DNA of 64,000 nucleotides from Sulfitobacter aestuariivivens (lineage in GTDB: Bacteria; Pseudomonadota; Alphaproteobacteria; Rhodobacterales; Rhodobacteraceae): assembly GCF_014763045.1 (NCBI RefSeq), contig NZ_JACTAG010000001.1:1-64000 (forward strand), given 5' to 3'. The position numbers and the translations under genes were made by a program. The notes under the pieces were generated by a model, which saw only the letters and a program-made list of their open reading frames with translations, had not been told where the DNA came from and searched no databases. How positions within the stretch are numbered: position 1 is the first letter of the stretch; each line of letters starts with the position of its first letter. This document shows, one piece after another, positions 43,203-51,350 of the stretch.

Positions 43203-43658
43203 CTATAGAACGCCGATTTCGGCAAGCGCCCTGTTCAGTTCTGTGGGCAGGGCGGTTTCGCCCGTCCGGTCGGCGCGCAGATCGGGTGGGGCGTCGGTCG
43301 CTTCAAGATAGCGCCAGCCCTGAAAGGGGCGGCGCAGGGCCGGGGAGACGCGGATGATGTCGGGGGCCAGCACGATGGCGCAGCGGCGGATGCCATCCGC
43401 GCCGATGACCTCGTCCAGGCGCAGGACATTCTGGCGGCACAGGACCTCGCCCTTGATGACCCAATAGATGGACCCGCCGTTGAGGATTTCCGCCGCGCGT
43501 TTCGGCCACATGCGGGTGACATGACGGGGCAGGCCGTCTTTGGTTTGGGCGCGTTTGTTGGCGTGCCAGGCTTGCAGGCCTTCGACGCTTTCGGTGCCGA
43601 CGCTCAGCTTGATCAGGTTGACGGCTTTGCCCACAGGCTTACCCACTTTCTTGTCCAC
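43203..43658 (-). CDS. DUF1489 family protein
   Basis: A protein of about 151 residues, soluble, conserved in alphaproteobacteria and of unknown function. VNLIKLSVGTESVEGLQAWHANKRAQ near the N-terminus, 'HVTRMWPKRAAEILNGGSIYWVIKGEVLCRQNVLRLDEV' in the middle and 'PFQGWRYLEATDAPPDL' at the end are the DUF1489 core. No ATG stands in front of the conserved part. The best start is a GTG at 43658 with AGGGG seven bases upstream; two further in-frame GTGs follow. Divergent from nrdJ with a 100-nt gap. Confidence 0.82.
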   Translation of the reverse strand: MDKKVGKPVGKAVNLIKLSVGTESVEGLQAWHANKRAQTKDGLPRHVTRMWPKRAAEILNGGSIYWVIKGEVLCRQNVLRLDEVIGADGIRRCAIVLAPDIIRVSPALRRPFQGWRYLEATDAPPDLRADRTGETALPTELNRALAEIGVL

Positions 43659-43758
43659 AGACTCACCCCTGAGCCACGATATAGGGTAGTGGATTGCCGC
43701 GATAATGCAAACTGTGGTAGGTTGTCGCTTCCCCCGTTGCAAACCGAAAGAATCGATC

Positions 43759-46326
43759 ATGTCTGCCTTTGCTGCCCCCATTGCCGAACAGATCTGGGAC
43801 ATGAAGTATCGGTTCAAAGATGCGGGTGGCACCCCAAAGGATGCCACAGTCGAAGACACTTGGCGGCGCATTGCGCGGGATCTGGCACAGGTGGAGCAGG
43901 ATCCGAAAGCTTGGGAAGAGCAGTTTTATGAGGCGCTGGAGGGGTTCAAGTATCTGCCAGCAGGCCGCATCACGGCCGGGGCAGGCACAGCGCGGCGGGT
44001 GACGTTGTTCAACTGTTTTGTCATGGGCACGATCCCCGACGACATGGGCGGCATTTTCGACATGCTGAAAGAGGCAGCACTCACCATGCAGCAGGGCGGT
44101 GGCATCGGGTATGATTTCTCGACCATCCGGCCCAAGGGCGCGGATGTGAAGGGCGTGAGTGCGGATGCCTCTGGCCCGCTGTCGTTCATGGACGTCTGGG
44201 ATGCGATGTGCCGCACGATCATGTCGGCGGGGTCGCGCCGGGGTGCGATGATGGCGACGATGCGGTGCGATCATCCGGACATCGAGGATTTCATCGGTGC
44301 AAAGTCAGACCCCGCGCGTCTGCGGATGTTCAACATGTCCGTATTGGTCTCGGATGCGTTCATGGAGGCGGTCAAGGCCGATGCGGCCTGGGAGCTGATT
44401 TTTGACGACAAGGTCTACCGCACGGTTCAGGCACGCGATCTGTGGAACCGGATCATGCAGGCGACCTTCGATTTTGCTGAACCGGGGGTGATCTTTATCG
44501 ACCGGATCAATCAGGCGAATAATCTGAATTATTGCGAGACGATTTCGGCGACGAACCCGTGCGGCGAACAGCCGCTGCCGCCCTATGGGGCCTGTTTGCT
44601 GGGGTCGGTCAATCTGGCCCGGTTGGTGTCCGAACCCTTCAGTGACGCGGCCGGGTTGGATGAAGACGCGCTGGTCCGGCTGGTCACGACCGCGGTGCGG
44701 ATGATGGACAATGTGGTGGATGTGTCGAAGTTCCCGCTGGAGGCGCAGGCGCAGGAGGCGCAGGCCAAGCGGCGGATCGGGCTGGGAGTGACCGGGTTGG
44801 CGGATGCGCTGCTGATGACCGGTCTGCGTTATGGCAGCGACGCGGCCGCCGCACAGACCGAAGCTTGGATGAAGAAGATCGCCCGTGCGGCCTATCTGGC
44901 GAGTGTTGATTTGGCGAAGGAGAAGGGGGCGTTCCCCCTGTTCGATGCCGAAAAGTTTCTGGCTTCGGGCACCATGCAGCAGATGGATGAGGATGTGCGC
45001 GACGCGATCGCGGCGCACGGTATTCGCAATGCCTTGCTGACCTCCATCGCGCCCACCGGGACGATCAGCCTTTATGCTGGCAATGTCTCAAGCGGGATCG
45101 AGCCGGTCTTTGCCTATGCCTATACCCGCAAGGTGCTGCAAAAGGATGGATCCCGCACCGAAGAAGAAGTTGTGGATTACGCCGTGCAGATGTGGCGCGA
45201 TCTGAAGGGGGATGCCGCACTGCCGGATTACTTCGTCAACGCCCAGACGCTGGCCCCGCTGGATCACGTCAAGATGCAGGCCGCAGCGCAAAAGTGGATC
45301 GACAGCTCTATCTCCAAGACGATCAATTGCCCTGAAGATATCTCTTTCGAGGATTTCAAGGACGTCTACATGGCGGCATGGGATCAGGGGTGCAAGGGCT
45401 GCACGACGTATCGGCCCAATGATGTGACGGGGTCGGTTTTGAGTGTGGCGGAGGACAAACCGGTGCTGGCAAGCAGTGCTGAGCGATTGCAGAGCGCGTT
45501 CGGGCAGTCTGGGTTCGGCAGTCAAAAGGAGCTTGCCGACGCAAGTGGTGTCGATCCCACTTCACTTGGGAAGTACCTCAAGGGGGGAGAGCCTTCCAAA
45601 GAGAACGCAAAGAAATTGGCCAAAACCCTGGGGGTGAGTGCTGGATGGTTGCTTTTTGGTGATACATCCGAAACCGTCTCGCCCGGCCCAGAGGCCGGGC
45701 AGCCCCCGACCGCCCCCATGGGCGGGGGCTTTGCCCCCACCCGCGGTCGGGGGCTGCCCTCGGAGCAGGAGGTGGTGGAAGATGCGAACGCGGGCGACGT
45801 CATCTACATGTCCGAACCTTTGGATCGTCCCAACGAGCTGGAAGGCAATACCTACAAGGTCAAGTGGCCGGACAGCGAGCACGCGCTTTATATCACCATC
45901 AATGACATTGTGCTGAACGGGCATCGTCGGCCCTTCGAGGTGTTCATCAATTCAAAGAACATGGAGCATTTCGCCTGGACCGTCGCGTTGACCCGGATGA
46001 TTTCTGCGGTGTTCCGGCGTGGCGGGGATGTGTCGTTTGTGGTCGAGGAACTGAAGGCCGTGTTCGATCCGCGTGGTGGCGCGTGGATGAAGGGCAAATA
46101 CATTCCGTCGATCCTTGCGGCGATCGGCGGGGTGATCGAACAGCACATGATCGTTACCGGTTTCATCGCCGGCGAGGGGCTGGGTCTGAAAACCGATCCG
46201 CAGGCGCAGGTGGTTGGCCTTGAGGCGCCGCGCGGCAAGGCCTGTCCGTCATGTGGTCAGTATGATTTGCGCATGGTCGAGGGCTGCATGACCTGCGGAG
46301 CCTGCGGCCATTCCAAGTGCGGATGA
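43759..46326 (+). CDS. nrdJ: Adenosylcobalamin-dependent ribonucleotide reductase with inserted HTH domain
   Basis: An 855-residue class II ribonucleotide reductase that makes deoxyribonucleotides with vitamin B12 and no need for oxygen. Active-site parts: LFNCFVMG (first redox Cys), NPCGEQPLPPYGACLLGSVNL with Cys268 and Glu270, 'GVTGLADALLMTG', 'TGTISLYAGNVSSGIEPVF', and a C-terminal Cys-rich tail (CPSCGQYDLRMVEGCMTCGACGHSKCG) for re-reduction. Unusually, residues 575-634 form an XRE-type helix-turn-helix (SQKELADASGVDPTSLGKYLKGG...ENAKKLAKTLGVSAGWLLFG). A Pro/Gly stretch encoded by a nested palindrome follows (635-674). Both sit between the reductase core and the tail domain. Confidence 0.93.
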   Translation: MSAFAAPIAEQIWDMKYRFKDAGGTPKDATVEDTWRRIARDLAQVEQDPKAWEEQFYEALEGFKYLPAGRITAGAGTARRVTLFNCFVMGTIPDDMGGIFDMLKEAALTMQQGGGIGYDFSTIRPKGADVKGVSADASGPLSFMDVWDAMCRTIMSAGSRRGAMMATMRCDHPDIEDFIGAKSDPARLRMFNMSVLVSDAFMEAVKADAAWELIFDDKVYRTVQARDLWNRIMQATFDFAEPGVIFIDRINQANNLNYCETISATNPCGEQPLPPYGACLLGSVNLARLVSEPFSDAAGLDEDALVRLVTTAVRMMDNVVDVSKFPLEAQAQEAQAKRRIGLGVTGLADALLMTGLRYGSDAAAAQTEAWMKKIARAAYLASVDLAKEKGAFPLFDAEKFLASGTMQQMDEDVRDAIAAHGIRNALLTSIAPTGTISLYAGNVSSGIEPVFAYAYTRKVLQKDGSRTEEEVVDYAVQMWRDLKGDAALPDYFVNAQTLAPLDHVKMQAAAQKWIDSSISKTINCPEDISFEDFKDVYMAAWDQGCKGCTTYRPNDVTGSVLSVAEDKPVLASSAERLQSAFGQSGFGSQKELADASGVDPTSLGKYLKGGEPSKENAKKLAKTLGVSAGWLLFGDTSETVSPGPEAGQPPTAPMGGGFAPTRGRGLPSEQEVVEDANAGDVIYMSEPLDRPNELEGNTYKVKWPDSEHALYITINDIVLNGHRRPFEVFINSKNMEHFAWTVALTRMISAVFRRGGDVSFVVEELKAVFDPRGGAWMKGKYIPSILAAIGGVIEQHMIVTGFIAGEGLGLKTDPQAQVVGLEAPRGKACPSCGQYDLRMVEGCMTCGACGHSKCG
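45681..45756. repeat. Nested GC palindrome inside nrdJ
   Basis: GCCCGGCC/GGCCGGGC (45681-45688, 45693-45700) is followed by a longer pair CAGCCCCCGACCG/CGGTCGGGGGCTG (45700-45712, 45744-45756) that encloses GGGGGC/GCCCCC. It stays in frame and encodes a Pro/Gly/Arg linker. It resembles the GC palindrome at 24199-24233. Confidence 0.85.
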
Positions 46327-46349: not shown

Positions 46350-47138
46350 CTAGAGATCCTTGTGTATCTCGGGAACAAAGGTCTGATCTGCCATTGGCGG
46401 ACGGACATAGCCGCGTTGTGCGGGCCTTTCTTCCAGCACCACAGGCTCGTGCTGAACTTCTTCGTAGGGGATCAGGGACAGCAGGTGGCTGATGCAGTTG
46501 AGGCGCGCGTGTTTCTTGATGTCGGATTCCACCACGTACCACGGGGCCTGCTTGATATCCGTGTGCGCGAACATGTCGTCCTTGGCCTTGGAATAATCGA
46601 CCCAGCGCTTGCGGCTTTCCAGATCCATTGGGCTGAGCTTCCACTGTTTTGTGGGATCGGTCAGGCGCTTTTGAAAGCGGCGTTCCTGTTCTTCGTCACT
46701 GACGGAGAACCAGTATTTGATCAGCTGAATGCCGGATCTGACCAGCATGCGCTCGAATTCGGGACAGCTGCGCATGAATTCCTTGTATTCTTCGTCGGTG
46801 CAGAAGCCCATGACGCGTTCAACGCCGGCCCGGTTGTACCATGAGCGGTCGAAGATGATGATCTCTCCGGCTGCGGGAAGGTGGGCGACATAGCGTTGGA
46901 AGTACCACTGGGTTTTCTCGCGCTCTGTCGGGGCGGGCAGGGCCACGACCTGGCAAATCCGCGGGTTCATCGCCTCAGTGATGCGCTTGATCGTGCCACC
47001 CTTACCTGCGGCATCTCTGCCCTCAAAGATGATGGCGACCTTGTGGCCGGACACCTTGACCCACTCTTGCAGTTTCACAAGTTCGATCTGCATCTGCGCG
47101 AGTTCCGCCTCATAGGCGGCGTTTGAGATTTTGGACAT
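46350..47138 (-). CDS. ppk2: Polyphosphate kinase 2
   Basis: A 262-residue class I PPK2 that moves phosphate between polyphosphate and nucleoside diphosphates. Walker A is FEGRDAAGKGGTIKRITEAMNPR (about residues 38-60), Walker B is IIIFDRSWYNRAGVERVMGF, and the lid 'WKLSPMDLESRKRWVDYSKAKDDMF' follows. The single-domain length fits class I or III enzymes. Alone, convergent with nrdJ. It may help balance nucleotide pools in a marine oligotroph (inference). Confidence 0.92.
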   Translation of the reverse strand: MSKISNAAYEAELAQMQIELVKLQEWVKVSGHKVAIIFEGRDAAGKGGTIKRITEAMNPRICQVVALPAPTEREKTQWYFQRYVAHLPAAGEIIIFDRSWYNRAGVERVMGFCTDEEYKEFMRSCPEFERMLVRSGIQLIKYWFSVSDEEQERRFQKRLTDPTKQWKLSPMDLESRKRWVDYSKAKDDMFAHTDIKQAPWYVVESDIKKHARLNCISHLLSLIPYEEVQHEPVVLEERPAQRGYVRPPMADQTFVPEIHKDL

Positions 47139-47432: not shown

Positions 47433-50400
47433 ATGCGCAAGTTATTCCCCTCGCCCGCCAACAGAAATCCCTTTGCCTTTCCCGAAAACCTTCCCGCTGC
47501 CTCTGACGAGGCCCTCCCGGACATCGTGGCAGAGGCGATGCCGGTGGTTGAAAGCATGGACATTGGGAGCTTGGCGAAGGAAGGCGAAGCGCCCGATGAG
47601 GCGCCTGCGCCTGTCGACATGGCGGCAACGGTTCTTGACGACCCCGATCACGGGCATGAACACGACCATGAGCATGAACATGAAGAAGAGGATCATGCAC
47701 ATGTCTCCGGCCCGGGATCAGACAAGGCAGCGCACCGGGCGGCTGATTTCCATACCGCGGCTGAGGCGATCGAGGCGCATATGCCCGACCACGCGGCAGG
47801 TGCGGCGCACGGGCATGGCGTGACGGCCCTTTCGCATCACGAAGATGATTTGCATCCCGGACACATCCACGTGCGGGACGAGGGCAACGAAGGGTATGTA
47901 CCTGGGGCTGATCCTGCGACCGAAGATGGCGGCGGGACGACAAGTGACGGATCCGCGGCCATTCTGGGCGATATGGCGGATTATCTGTCCAGTGGGTACT
48001 GGACGCGCAACGGCAGCACGATTGAAACGCGCTTTCACAACGTCGGCACCACGGGCAATGACCCCAATGATGGGGTGCTCTATTTCAACGTGTCAGGCTA
48101 TGTGGATGATCTGGACGGGCTGACCTCAGCACGCGCCTTCCTTGTCCGGGAGGCTTTCAATCTCTTTGGGGCGACCCTTGGCATTGAGTTTCGCGAGACC
48201 ACGTCGACGGACACAAGCGTCGTAGATTTCTTTTTCTCCGATGACGAAAGCGGGGCCTATGCCGGGTCAAGCTATTGGAGCAACGGGGAGATCAACTATT
48301 CCTATCTGAACATCGCGGCGGGATGGTCAGGTGGCACGTCGACCTATGACGACTATACGTTCCAGACGATCCTGCACGAGATCGGGCATGCGCTGGGCCT
48401 GGGCCATCAGGGCCCCTACAACGGGTCGGCGTCTTACGGGACAGACAACACGTTTGAGAACGACAGCTGGCAGGCGTCGATGATGTCCTATTTCAGCCAG
48501 ACCGAGAACACGTCGATCAACGCATCCTATGAATTCCTTCAGACGCCCATGGCGGTGGACTGGATGGCGCTGAACGATCTTTATGGCTCACAGGGGTACG
48601 GCACCTTCAACGCGTTTACCGAGAACACGGTCTGGGGGTTCAACACGACGATCACCTCTGAAGTGTCGGATGTCTGGGCGAACTTTGCCAGTTTCGGCAA
48701 CCGGACCGCGTCGACCATCGTGGATGGCGGTGGGATCGATACGCTTGATCTGTCGGGCTATGCCAACAACACACTGATCAATCTGGCCCCGACGGACCGT
48801 GCTGATACGACACCGTCGCTGTCCAACATCGGCGGACGCATCGGCAACCTTGCCATGGCCGAGGGAACGATCATTGAAAACGCTATTGGCGGTGCGGGGA
48901 ACGAGACGTTCATCGGCAATGCGGCGGACAACACGATGACCGGGAACGGCGGCAATGATACATTCGAGGACAGTGCCGGTGCGGATACCTATCTGGGGGG
49001 CGCGGGCGTTGATACGGTGTCATTCGGCCAGGCATTCGGGACCTATACGTTCAACGTTTCCGGGGTGTTCCTGCAGGTCATCAACGTCGTTATGGATATC
49101 GTTGAGAACACGGTCGAATGGCTGACATTCACCGATGCAACCTATTCCTGGGCAGAGATTGCCGGTGGGGTTTCACCCAACACCGCGCCCGTCGCAACGG
49201 CCGATGGTGCCAATGTTGACGAAGACGGCACCGTATCCGGCAATGTGTTGTCGAATGACAGCGATGCGGACGGTGGTGTGCTGAGCGTTGTTGCCGTGAA
49301 CGGGCAGGCGGGCAACGTAGGTCAGCAAATCACGCTGGCATCCGGGGCGCTTGTGACGCTGAATGCGAACGGCACGTACAGCTATGTTACGAATGGCGCG
49401 TTTGATGCGCTGAACGACGGTGAGACGGCGCAGGACAGCTTTACCTATCAGATCAGCGATGGGCAGGGCGGGAGCGATCAGGCGACCGTGACCATTACCG
49501 TTGACGGGGCCACGGGCAATGTCGCCCCGGTGGCGGTGAACGACACCGCCGGTGTGGCCGAAGACGCGACGGTCTCTGGCAATGTGCTGAGCAATGACAG
49601 CGATGCAGACGGTGGTGTGCTGAGCGTTGTTGCCGTGAACGGGCAAGCGGGCAACGTTGGTCAGCAGATCACGCTGGCATCCGGGGCGCTGGTGACGCTG
49701 AATGCGAACGGCACGTACAGCTATGATACGAACGGCGCGTTTGATGCGCTGAACGACGGCGAGACGGCGCAGGACAGCTTTACCTATCAGATCAGCGACG
49801 GGCAGGGCGGGAGCGATCAGGCCACCGTGACCATCACCGTTGACGGCGCCACAGGCAATGTCGCACCGGTGGCGGTCAATGACACCGCGACCGTGGCCGA
49901 AGACGGCACGATTGCCGGGAATGTCCTGTCGAATGATACTGACGGCAATGGCGATGGGTTGAGTGTTGTGTCCGTGAACGGTCAGGCAGCATTTGTGGGT
50001 CAGCAGATCACGTTGGCATCCGGGGCGCTTGTGACGCTGAACGCGGACGGCAGCTATGACTATGACCCCAACGGCGCGTTCGAGACGCTTAACACTGGCG
50101 AGACCGCGTTGGACGGCTTTACCTATGGCGTTTCAGACGGAAATGGCGGGACAGATACTGCCAGTGTTGCCATCACTGTCGAGGGGGTCTCTCCGCCTAT
50201 GGTTGCGACACCTGTTCTGGTCGATTTCGAAACCGCACCGCTGGGCGATTTCGCCGGGTTGGACGGCGTCGATGCGACGGGCCTTGTGGTCGCCGCTGGT
50301 ACGGCCATAACCGGTGCACGATATGCCCAATCGGACGGGTTCACTCTGGTTGCCACCGATGAAGACTTTGATCTGAACAGCCTCACGCTGCAGTCAATCG

Positions 50401-51350
50401 ATGGTCGGGTGCGGATCAGTATCGAGGCCTGGGATGATGGCATCCTTGTGGCCACTCAGAACGTGAATGTGAGGCCGGGACGGACTGTCGAAGTGTCCTT
50501 TGGCCCCAGCTTTGACAGCATTGACGAAGTGCGGGTGTCTGCCAACGGGACGTTCAATATCGATGATATTGGTTTGACAATTCTGTCACCGGTCGGACCA
50601 GGTGATGTCGTGAATCCGATCGCGGTCAACGACAGTTTTGAGACCAGCGAAGCGGACGTCGTCAGTGGCAATGTTCTGGCAAATGATGACGATCCCGACG
50701 GCGGCACGCTGTCTCTGGTTTCGGTTGAAGGGGATGATTCCGGCACGGTTACGTTGGTTTCGGGCGCGCAGGTCAGCTTTGCCAGCGATGGCACCATAAG
50801 CTATGACCCCAACGGCGCGTTTGACGCACTTTACGATGGCCAGACCGCGCAGGACAGCTTTTCCTATGCGATATCGGACGGACAGGGGGGCACCGCACAG
50901 GCCATTGCTACGATCAATATCGCAGGCGCCGGCGATCCGCCGGTTCCGCCCACAGCGATCAGCCTTGGGTTTGAGGGAACGGTGATTGGCGGGATGATTG
51001 AGGAAGACGGATTCATCTTCAACGACGTCACGACGAGCACAGCCAGTCCCGGCGTGGCCTCAGGTGCGCAGGCCGTGCAGAGCATCGGCAACAGCATCAC
51101 GTTTGCGCAGGCCGATGGCGAAAATTTCGATCTGGAACAAGCGGTTCTGACGGCTGTTTCGGGGCGCAACATCCGTGTTCAGGTCGAGGCTTATGATGAC
51201 GGCATCCTTGTCGCGATGGACAGTATCCGTATTCGTGACAACCGTGACACGACGATCAATTTCAACGATGCCGAGTTTGGTAACGTCGATCAGATCGTTT
51301 TCACGGCGGAGGGGGGGCTGATCCTGGATGATGTGCTGGTCTTTGCCTGA
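47433..51350 (+). CDS. Secreted serralysin-type metalloprotease with cadherin-like repeats and His-rich N-terminus
   Basis: A 1305-residue protein. Residues 73-90 are a run of His/Glu/Asp. The M10 protease domain (about 165-400) has the zinc motif HEIGHALGLGH (His315, Glu316, His319, His325) and a Met-turn SMMSYFSQ. A few RTX nonapeptides follow (GGAGNETFIGNAADN, GGAGVDT; about 485-530). Then come three VCBS/cadherin-like repeats of 113 residues and a diverged fourth, alternating with two similar beta-sandwich modules (LDFET...VDDI-type) near 925-1045 and 1170-1305. No Sec signal; secretion by a type I system is expected, but no such genes are in the window. Confidence 0.88.
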   Translation: MRKLFPSPANRNPFAFPENLPAASDEALPDIVAEAMPVVESMDIGSLAKEGEAPDEAPAPVDMAATVLDDPDHGHEHDHEHEHEEEDHAHVSGPGSDKAAHRAADFHTAAEAIEAHMPDHAAGAAHGHGVTALSHHEDDLHPGHIHVRDEGNEGYVPGADPATEDGGGTTSDGSAAILGDMADYLSSGYWTRNGSTIETRFHNVGTTGNDPNDGVLYFNVSGYVDDLDGLTSARAFLVREAFNLFGATLGIEFRETTSTDTSVVDFFFSDDESGAYAGSSYWSNGEINYSYLNIAAGWSGGTSTYDDYTFQTILHEIGHALGLGHQGPYNGSASYGTDNTFENDSWQASMMSYFSQTENTSINASYEFLQTPMAVDWMALNDLYGSQGYGTFNAFTENTVWGFNTTITSEVSDVWANFASFGNRTASTIVDGGGIDTLDLSGYANNTLINLAPTDRADTTPSLSNIGGRIGNLAMAEGTIIENAIGGAGNETFIGNAADNTMTGNGGNDTFEDSAGADTYLGGAGVDTVSFGQAFGTYTFNVSGVFLQVINVVMDIVENTVEWLTFTDATYSWAEIAGGVSPNTAPVATADGANVDEDGTVSGNVLSNDSDADGGVLSVVAVNGQAGNVGQQITLASGALVTLNANGTYSYVTNGAFDALNDGETAQDSFTYQISDGQGGSDQATVTITVDGATGNVAPVAVNDTAGVAEDATVSGNVLSNDSDADGGVLSVVAVNGQAGNVGQQITLASGALVTLNANGTYSYDTNGAFDALNDGETAQDSFTYQISDGQGGSDQATVTITVDGATGNVAPVAVNDTATVAEDGTIAGNVLSNDTDGNGDGLSVVSVNGQAAFVGQQITLASGALVTLNADGSYDYDPNGAFETLNTGETALDGFTYGVSDGNGGTDTASVAITVEGVSPPMVATPVLVDFETAPLGDFAGLDGVDATGLVVAAGTAITGARYAQSDGFTLVATDEDFDLNSLTLQSIDGRVRISIEAWDDGILVATQNVNVRPGRTVEVSFGPSFDSIDEVRVSANGTFNIDDIGLTILSPVGPGDVVNPIAVNDSFETSEADVVSGNVLANDDDPDGGTLSLVSVEGDDSGTVTLVSGAQVSFASDGTISYDPNGAFDALYDGQTAQDSFSYAISDGQGGTAQAIATINIAGAGDPPVPPTAISLGFEGTVIGGMIEEDGFIFNDVTTSTASPGVASGAQAVQSIGNSITFAQADGENFDLEQAVLTAVSGRNIRVQVEAYDDGILVAMDSIRIRDNRDTTINFNDAEFGNVDQIVFTAEGGLILDDVLVFA
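49179..50195 (+). repeat. Three direct repeats of 339 bp in the serralysin gene
   Basis: Units begin at 49179, 49518 and 49857, each exactly 339 bp (113 codons). Units 1 and 2 are nearly identical at the DNA level, for example GTGCTGAGCGTTGTTGCCGT in both; unit 3 is more diverged. Such identity suggests recent duplication and a place where copy number can change. Confidence 0.9.

Follow-up and report, generated by a model that had tools for sequence, protein, structure and literature searches.

A hypervariable XRE-type helix-turn-helix cassette in a short-form class II ribonucleotide reductase from the Rhodobacteraceae

Why would a ribonucleotide reductase carry a DNA-binding fold in the middle of its chain? 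This question is raised by nrdJ (43759..46326, plus strand) in a 64,000-nucleotide stretch of Sulfitobacter aestuariivivens DNA (NZ_JACTAG010000001.1, positions 1 to 64,000; hereafter the window). The gene codes for an 855-residue adenosylcobalamin-dependent class II reductase of the short, TSCPD-containing form. A first-pass annotation, made from the sequence alone, had read residues 575–634 as an XRE-type (Cro/CI-type) helix-turn-helix (HTH) and raised the question of whether this insertion is unique. It is not. The insertion is recurrent and hypervariable in the Rhodobacteraceae, neither unique nor stable, and occurs in 28 to 30 of the 149 family loci that we read. Comparison of these loci gives good support to the view that the HTH has been exchanged between species while the flanking sequences stayed homologous.

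The host protein scores 591.9 bits against the NCBIfam equivalog TIGR02504 (NrdJ_Z, cut-off 399.95), and its matches to PF00317, PF02867 and PF12637 (all-alpha, barrel and TSCPD domains) all exceed the Pfam cut-offs. The catalytic barrel covers residues 85–551 (44011..45411, plus strand; PF02867, 434.2 bits) and the TSCPD domain residues 699–797 (45853..46149, plus strand; PF12637, 43.6 bits). The HTH was correctly placed in the linker between these two domains, where it spans residues 573–633 (45475..45657, plus strand). Pfam HTH_3 (PF01381) matches residues 588–631 with an E value of 1.4e-11 and 44.7 bits against a cut-off of 23, and AlphaFold predicts five helices (573–584, 589–596, 600–607, 614–624 and 628–633) with a predicted local confidence (pLDDT) of about 88–93, flanked by disordered stretches below 50. 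The XRE reading of residues 575–634 is therefore borne out by profile and predicted structure alike. The broader interval first given for the domain, 45481..45780, holds for its initial part: residues 575–634 correspond to 45481–45660 and are HTH, whereas 45661–45780 belongs to the linker and contains a GC-rich palindromic spacer. The full-length model is poor apart from the HTH (mean pLDDT 57), and the domain modelled in isolation gives a like five-helix fold. In Foldseek searches with this isolated domain the best match was 3vk0 (E 0.003), and P22 c2 repressor–operator complexes and 434 Cro aligned with target TM scores of 0.85–0.88 and an rmsd of 1.2 Å. No PDB match reached an E value of 0.001 or lower in Foldseek, which is unsurprising for so small a domain. 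Sequence searches of the PDB with the linker region returned the transcriptional regulator 4ich (E 0.0013) and the 434 repressor (E 0.04), and the NCBIfam model of the phage repressor RstR matched below its cut-off (E 4.1e-7, 30.3 versus 80 bits). The net charge of the domain is +2, and it may bind DNA. A Pfam scan of the whole NrdJ found no S24 or other phage oligomerization domain; only reductase, HTH and TSCPD models scored above their cut-offs.

How widespread is this arrangement? Among 198 genomes of the family, 176 gave a match to the short NrdJ, and 149 loci from 148 genomes were read; since these were the better matches, the resulting HTH frequency is an approximation. Linker length, measured between the barrel end and the TSCPD anchor, has a bimodal distribution: 119 of the 149 loci have 33–54 residues, 28 have 111–210, and two have no anchor. 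The 28 long linkers carry an HTH and the 119 short ones are plain. In one anchorless locus (L007, genome G009) the reading frame shifts beyond the HTH, within or close to a C run of a repeat like the palindromic one of the window; this may be a sequencing error or a real break. At the other (L126, genome G184), nrdJ ends in the linker and is followed on the opposite strand by a transposase gene (DUF772 and DDE domains). The linker remnant of L126 has no Pfam match, and a former HTH at this place would be our reading only. In total, 43 linkers (30 survey loci and 13 from the named scan and genus searches) were scanned with Pfam. HTH_3 matched 39 of them at an E value of 0.01 or lower, some below the curated cut-off; the four others include L126 and a locus (L169) with HTH_31 only (E 0.008). 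Matches to non-HTH Pfam models were few, weak and confined to single members. One linker (L028, genome G118) carries two tandem HTHs that fall into different clusters. An intein or other mobile insert was rejected as the identity of the insertion, as no splicing or homing-nuclease match was found in the window protein or among the Pfam families listed for the 43 linkers.

Among the matches listed, HTH-bearing NrdJ proteins occur in Sulfitobacter, Tateyamaria, Defluviimonas, Pelagimonas, Primorskyibacter, Aliishimia, Sedimentitalea, Puniceibacterium, Rhodosalinus, Mameliella, Antarcticimicrobium, Roseovarius and Rhodovulum. Outside the family, 111 other genomes matched, and the 26 loci read from these all lack an HTH. 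The class-level search, in which 115 of 289 genomes matched, led to the reading of 28 loci (26 from other families), none with an HTH. The linkers read in other families measure 42–70 residues by our own anchors and contain no domain. We agree with the first-pass annotation that such an insertion is unusual.

The case for exchange comes from comparing the HTHs with the sequences on either side. The cassette is bounded by conserved flanks, TGSVLSV on the N side and DVIYMSEPLDRP on the C side. In the window, the N-side flank (TGSVLSVAEDKP, 45427..45462, plus strand) is recognizable by the conserved TGSVL and by its identity to the corresponding sequence of Sulfitobacter sp. HI0040, and the C-side flank (EVVEDANAGDVIYMSEPLDRP, 45769..45834, plus strand) is found in HI0040 as well, on the far side of the swapped HTH, and has a similar counterpart in relatives that lack an HTH. 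TGSVL is invariant across the 43 long linkers and occurs in the majority of short ones too. The HTHs enclosed by these common flanks (TGSVL.. and ..GDVIYMSEPLDRP) belong to many unrelated XRE types. These types were set by clustering, which returned 12 to 25 groups depending on the threshold; the type letters used here are our own labels. Across 779 pairs, HTH identity is essentially uncoupled from enzyme identity (Spearman 0.08). The three closest enzyme pairs (91–93% identical) have HTHs that are 14–21% identical, and in the fourth (90.4%) the HTHs are 40% identical. In the two closest pairs (92–93%) the value is 21%, as for unrelated XRE types.

The same picture emerges within genera. Of 62 Sulfitobacter genomes, 60 gave a match and 32 of these were read; the remainder were judged by match length only. 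An HTH was found only in the window (type A) and in HI0040 (G220; type C). At the DNA level, these two genes are 79% identical in the barrel, 76% in the N flank (33 aligned bases), 83% in the spacer plus C flank and 82% at the C-terminus, whereas the HTHs are 41% identical, compared with 45% for shuffled sequence. Of the five species in the genus of genome G106, Sedimentitalea xiamensis among them, four each carry a different HTH (13–31% identical) and one has none, with the 480 residues before the HTH site 89–95% identical. Two of three species in the genus of G044 (includes Antarcticimicrobium sediminis) have two different HTHs and the third none, with 94–96% identity in the preceding sequence. 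In the genus of G031, all five species were read and one has an HTH. The suggestion that the HTH is a captured domain is supported in the sense of repeated replacement.

Could a single ancestral HTH have diverged very fast and been lost many times, without any swapping? To this account we give the least credence. A FastTree phylogeny of 187 enzymes, which includes 40 HTH-bearing rows because the named HTH-positive loci were added to the survey, requires at least 32 changes in HTH presence. With the extra genus-level rows removed, presence changes 31 times compared with 35.5 times after shuffling (15 of 500 shuffles were as low), and HTH type changes 25 times compared with 27.9 (19 of 500). This slight clustering speaks for a single origin, as does the observation that the NrdJ HTHs of types A and D resemble the window HTH more closely than free regulators do. 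It is difficult to reconcile descent from one domain with closest enzyme pairs that share so little in their HTHs, with a window/HI0040 comparison that falls to the shuffled level between well-conserved neighbors, or with two tandem HTHs of different types in one linker. Many branches of the enzyme tree are poorly supported, and the within-genus cases carry more weight.

If the domain is exchanged, what could it recognize? One possibility is that NrdJ acts as a trigger enzyme that uses the HTH to bind its own promoter, or a small number of chromosomal promoters, and couples the state of the reductase to transcription. The XRE fold with its intact HTH would suit such a role, and regulatory fusions of an enzyme fold with an HTH are known, as described for BzdR (PMC3602430). 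However, the 170 bp upstream of nrdJ (43589..43758, plus strand, in the window), which we aligned among HTH-positive and HTH-negative relatives in four genus groups, do not follow the domain in two of these groups. In the genus of G031 this region is nearly identical in one HTH-positive and three HTH-negative species, and in the genus of G106 all species but the divergent G260, four of five, have a common layout, whether they carry one of three HTH types or no HTH. The alignments reveal no operator specific to an HTH type in either genus. In the window's own genus and in that of G044, the upstream DNA is too diverged for comparison. Promoter self-regulation, raised by the first-pass annotation, is unsupported in the two genera that can be compared. 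Swapping the HTH between species would also break any fixed regulon, and the own genome holds no close second copy of the window HTH. We consider a trigger-enzyme or autoregulatory function distinctly unlikely.

We tentatively regard the HTH as an exchangeable cassette for DNA recognition, carried by a second, accessory class II reductase, with turnover probably driven by conflict with temperate phages. The exchange can be read from the alignments; the function of the cassette is something we infer. The linker site between barrel and TSCPD domain of the short Rhodobacteraceae enzyme is either empty or holds an XRE HTH of the phage-repressor type. Homologous recombination in the conserved flanks may swap cassettes among nrdJ alleles, drawing on a large pool that would be replenished by occasional fresh capture from repressor genes. 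Class II reductases dimerize, so that NrdJ might present paired CI-like HTHs in the way phage repressors do, and these pairs could conceivably recognize operator sites in temperate phages or in mobile elements of other kinds. Frequency-dependent selection on recognition specificity would then account for the turnover. The more elaborate version of this idea strikes us as rather doubtful: the reductase would serve as carrier of a horizontally exchanged immunity-repressor domain, with the HTHs of the dimer swapped between strains to recognize the phage or plasmid operators of the day, and might even place control of deoxynucleotide (dNTP) supply on the invading DNA.

The short NrdJ is not the sole copy. 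The own genome also encodes a class II reductase of the long type (1227 residues, PRK07562, 2208 bits; L266, match G000:C1:1199047-1201188), and the listing for 61 genomes of the family includes, in 60 of them, an open frame of more than 1000 residues with a reductase match (counted irrespective of class).

Several results weigh against the recognition-cassette explanation. Searches by tblastn (phages for five HTHs, plasmids for one) and three scans of IMG/VR recovered no close phage relative, with identities of about 30–47%. The repressor names of many phage matches are weak evidence because XRE proteins in the phage collection are mostly repressors. When the window HTH is compared with the 198 family genomes, nine further NrdJ HTHs rank before any free regulator. 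No pair of NrdJ HTHs was seen to be clearly more alike than the enzymes that carry them, and the tree signal of HTH presence and type, weak as it is, is not nil. Positions presumed to contact DNA, which we assigned by reference to the 434 repressor, display no consistent excess of change or pattern. A net negative charge was calculated for 11 of 43 NrdJ HTHs, including five of six of type D; all eight free XRE domains chosen for comparison are positively charged. Some types may not bind DNA. Finally, PADLOC returned no convincing defence match, and its hits to capH (E 0.001) and RmrA (E 0.004) both arise from the HTH.

Repressor and XRE-regulator annotations predominate among the phage matches themselves, which were obtained for four HTH types at about 32–43% identity. 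The window HTH matches the c repressor of Pseudomonas phage DMS3. That of HI0040 has CI-like repressor matches in Paracoccus phage Pyei1 and in Rhodobacter phage RcapNL, and also matches an annotated antirepressor of Streptococcus phages. Type B has a match in Sulfitobacter phage NYA-2014a, and type A matches Rhizobium S24 repressors and phi80 cI; the phage matches of type D are weak and mixed. A phage origin argued from close matches was rejected, as the phage, plasmid and IMG/VR searches yielded only distant relatives. For the HI0040 HTH, the nearest relatives within the family are, in order, NrdJ, NrdJ, free, NrdJ and free. Since NrdJ HTHs rank ahead of free regulators for the window HTH, many cassettes appear to come from an NrdJ-borne pool and not from fresh phage capture. 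We infer from these rankings that nrdJ genes share a circulating pool of cassettes, some of which are exchanged with free regulators. HTH identity between NrdJ proteins tops out at 80%, and with no HTH pair seen to exceed its enzymes clearly in similarity, the comparison gives no support to recent transfer between genera.

The main rival to a recognition cassette is a tolerated passenger. According to this view the linker accepts small compact domains, XRE fragments are common, and the HTHs are gained and lost with little effect or act only as a folded spacer. The linker is indeed disordered, HTH-less relatives are normal, some HTHs are acidic, and one copy of nrdJ (L126) is interrupted at this very site by a transposase gene. 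We nevertheless regard this explanation as unlikely. HTH models dominate the 43 linkers, 28 of the 30 relevant survey loci retain an open reading frame, and the folds are kept. Within HTH types, the ratio of nonsynonymous to synonymous differences per site (pN/pS) is 0.31–0.42 with pS near saturation (0.58–0.82), which indicates that purifying selection maintains the fold within a type. The enzyme part has pN/pS of 0.18–0.26 at pS of 0.43–0.55; same-type HTHs from different genera are therefore more diverged at silent sites than their enzymes. Between types, the pN of the HTH is 0.59. Buried positions of the HTH are conserved.

A general DNA tether would also account for the interchange of unrelated XRE domains on an untouched enzyme. 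In this scenario the HTH keeps NrdJ near the nucleoid or replication fork for local dNTP supply, specificity is irrelevant and any XRE domain suffices. The acidic domains are a poor fit to such a role, and it gives no reason for frequent swapping or for the absence of the HTH in close relatives. We consider it improbable.

How does the recognition cassette compare with known systems? The DNA-binding domain of the regulator BzdR is of the Cro/CI type. This domain is N-terminal and joined to a metabolic-enzyme fold, and the enzyme part is reported to have lost its activity (PMC3602430). The joining of a DNA-binding domain to a metabolic-enzyme fold is common to both proteins; the HTH of NrdJ, by contrast, is internal and swapped between species on a conserved enzyme, and any regulatory role for it would be hypothetical. 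With the CI and c2 immunity repressors, the NrdJ HTHs have in common the fold (P22 c2, 434 Cro), the sequence family and a great diversity, seen in the repressors among related phages. Two similar Sulfitobacter temperate phages have putative regulators that are less than 30% identical, a parallel to the NrdJ HTHs (PMC7305329). A WLLFG-like ending likewise recurs in some phage and free regulators. Unlike these repressors, the NrdJ HTH lacks an S24 or oligomerization domain and sits on a reductase gene, and its operators are putative.

Type I restriction HsdS subunits exchange target-recognition domains between conserved flanks. The exchange of a specificity module between such flanks is the likeness to NrdJ. 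NrdJ differs in having no methylase or nuclease and one small XRE domain, and its proposed exchange is between species. The HEPD/MPnS oxygenases (6b9r and 6b9s, among our PDB matches) also contain an XRE-like fold inside a metabolic enzyme. There the domain is a fixed part of the family, whereas in NrdJ it is hypervariable. The XRE-like domains of these oxygenases are not known to bind DNA, a warning that the fold need not do so. A further comparison is with the HTH-less short NrdJ of the Rhodobacteraceae and of other Alphaproteobacteria, which has the same catalytic, TSCPD and cysteine-tail parts and the same flanks, but a linker without the domain (33–54 residues in the 119 family loci, 42–70 in other families). 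In open-licence papers we found no report of an HTH in NrdJ or of a metabolic enzyme with a DNA-binding domain exchanged between species. Fusions of enzymes with HTHs and exchange of recognition domains are each known; hypervariability of such a domain in a metabolic enzyme appears to be new.

The HTH has the look of a recognition module that selection drives to change again and again. Were the domains to bind operators of phages or plasmids, they would constitute a new form of immunity, encoded by the host and built into its nucleotide metabolism. A single scaffold with many unrelated HTHs is also a natural set in which operator recognition and co-evolution could be tested directly. Even if they bind no DNA, the turnover of one fold in one linker would still be striking.

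The remainder of the enzyme is conserved. Many barrel residues are invariant among 29 aligned proteins, as are the six cysteines of the C-terminal tail. The tail (46243..46320, plus strand) is cysteine-rich with CxxC pairs, as seen from translation and alignment.

Between the HTH and the C-side flank lies the GC-rich palindromic spacer (45676..45770, plus strand), which is translated in frame. It was recognized by its inverted repeat, with perfect 17-nucleotide arms at 45697–45713 and 45743–45759, by its fold, by alignment with locus L153 and by related copies in genome G518. The spacer follows different HTHs in L153 and L007. In both the window and HI0040 the reading frame runs through the repeat after the HTH, and in L007 the repeat also follows the HTH. 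Related copies occur elsewhere in G518 (L394, L395). A DNA search of the own genome with the repeat returned only the spacer copy (with a self-match in reverse) and one partial match. Downstream of nrdJ, the window contains a polyphosphate kinase 2 gene (46350–47138, minus strand; PF03976, 373.9 bits) and a gene at 47433–51350 (plus strand) for a 1305-residue protein with an M10-serralysin C-terminal domain, RTX repeats and cadherin/Ig-like repeats.

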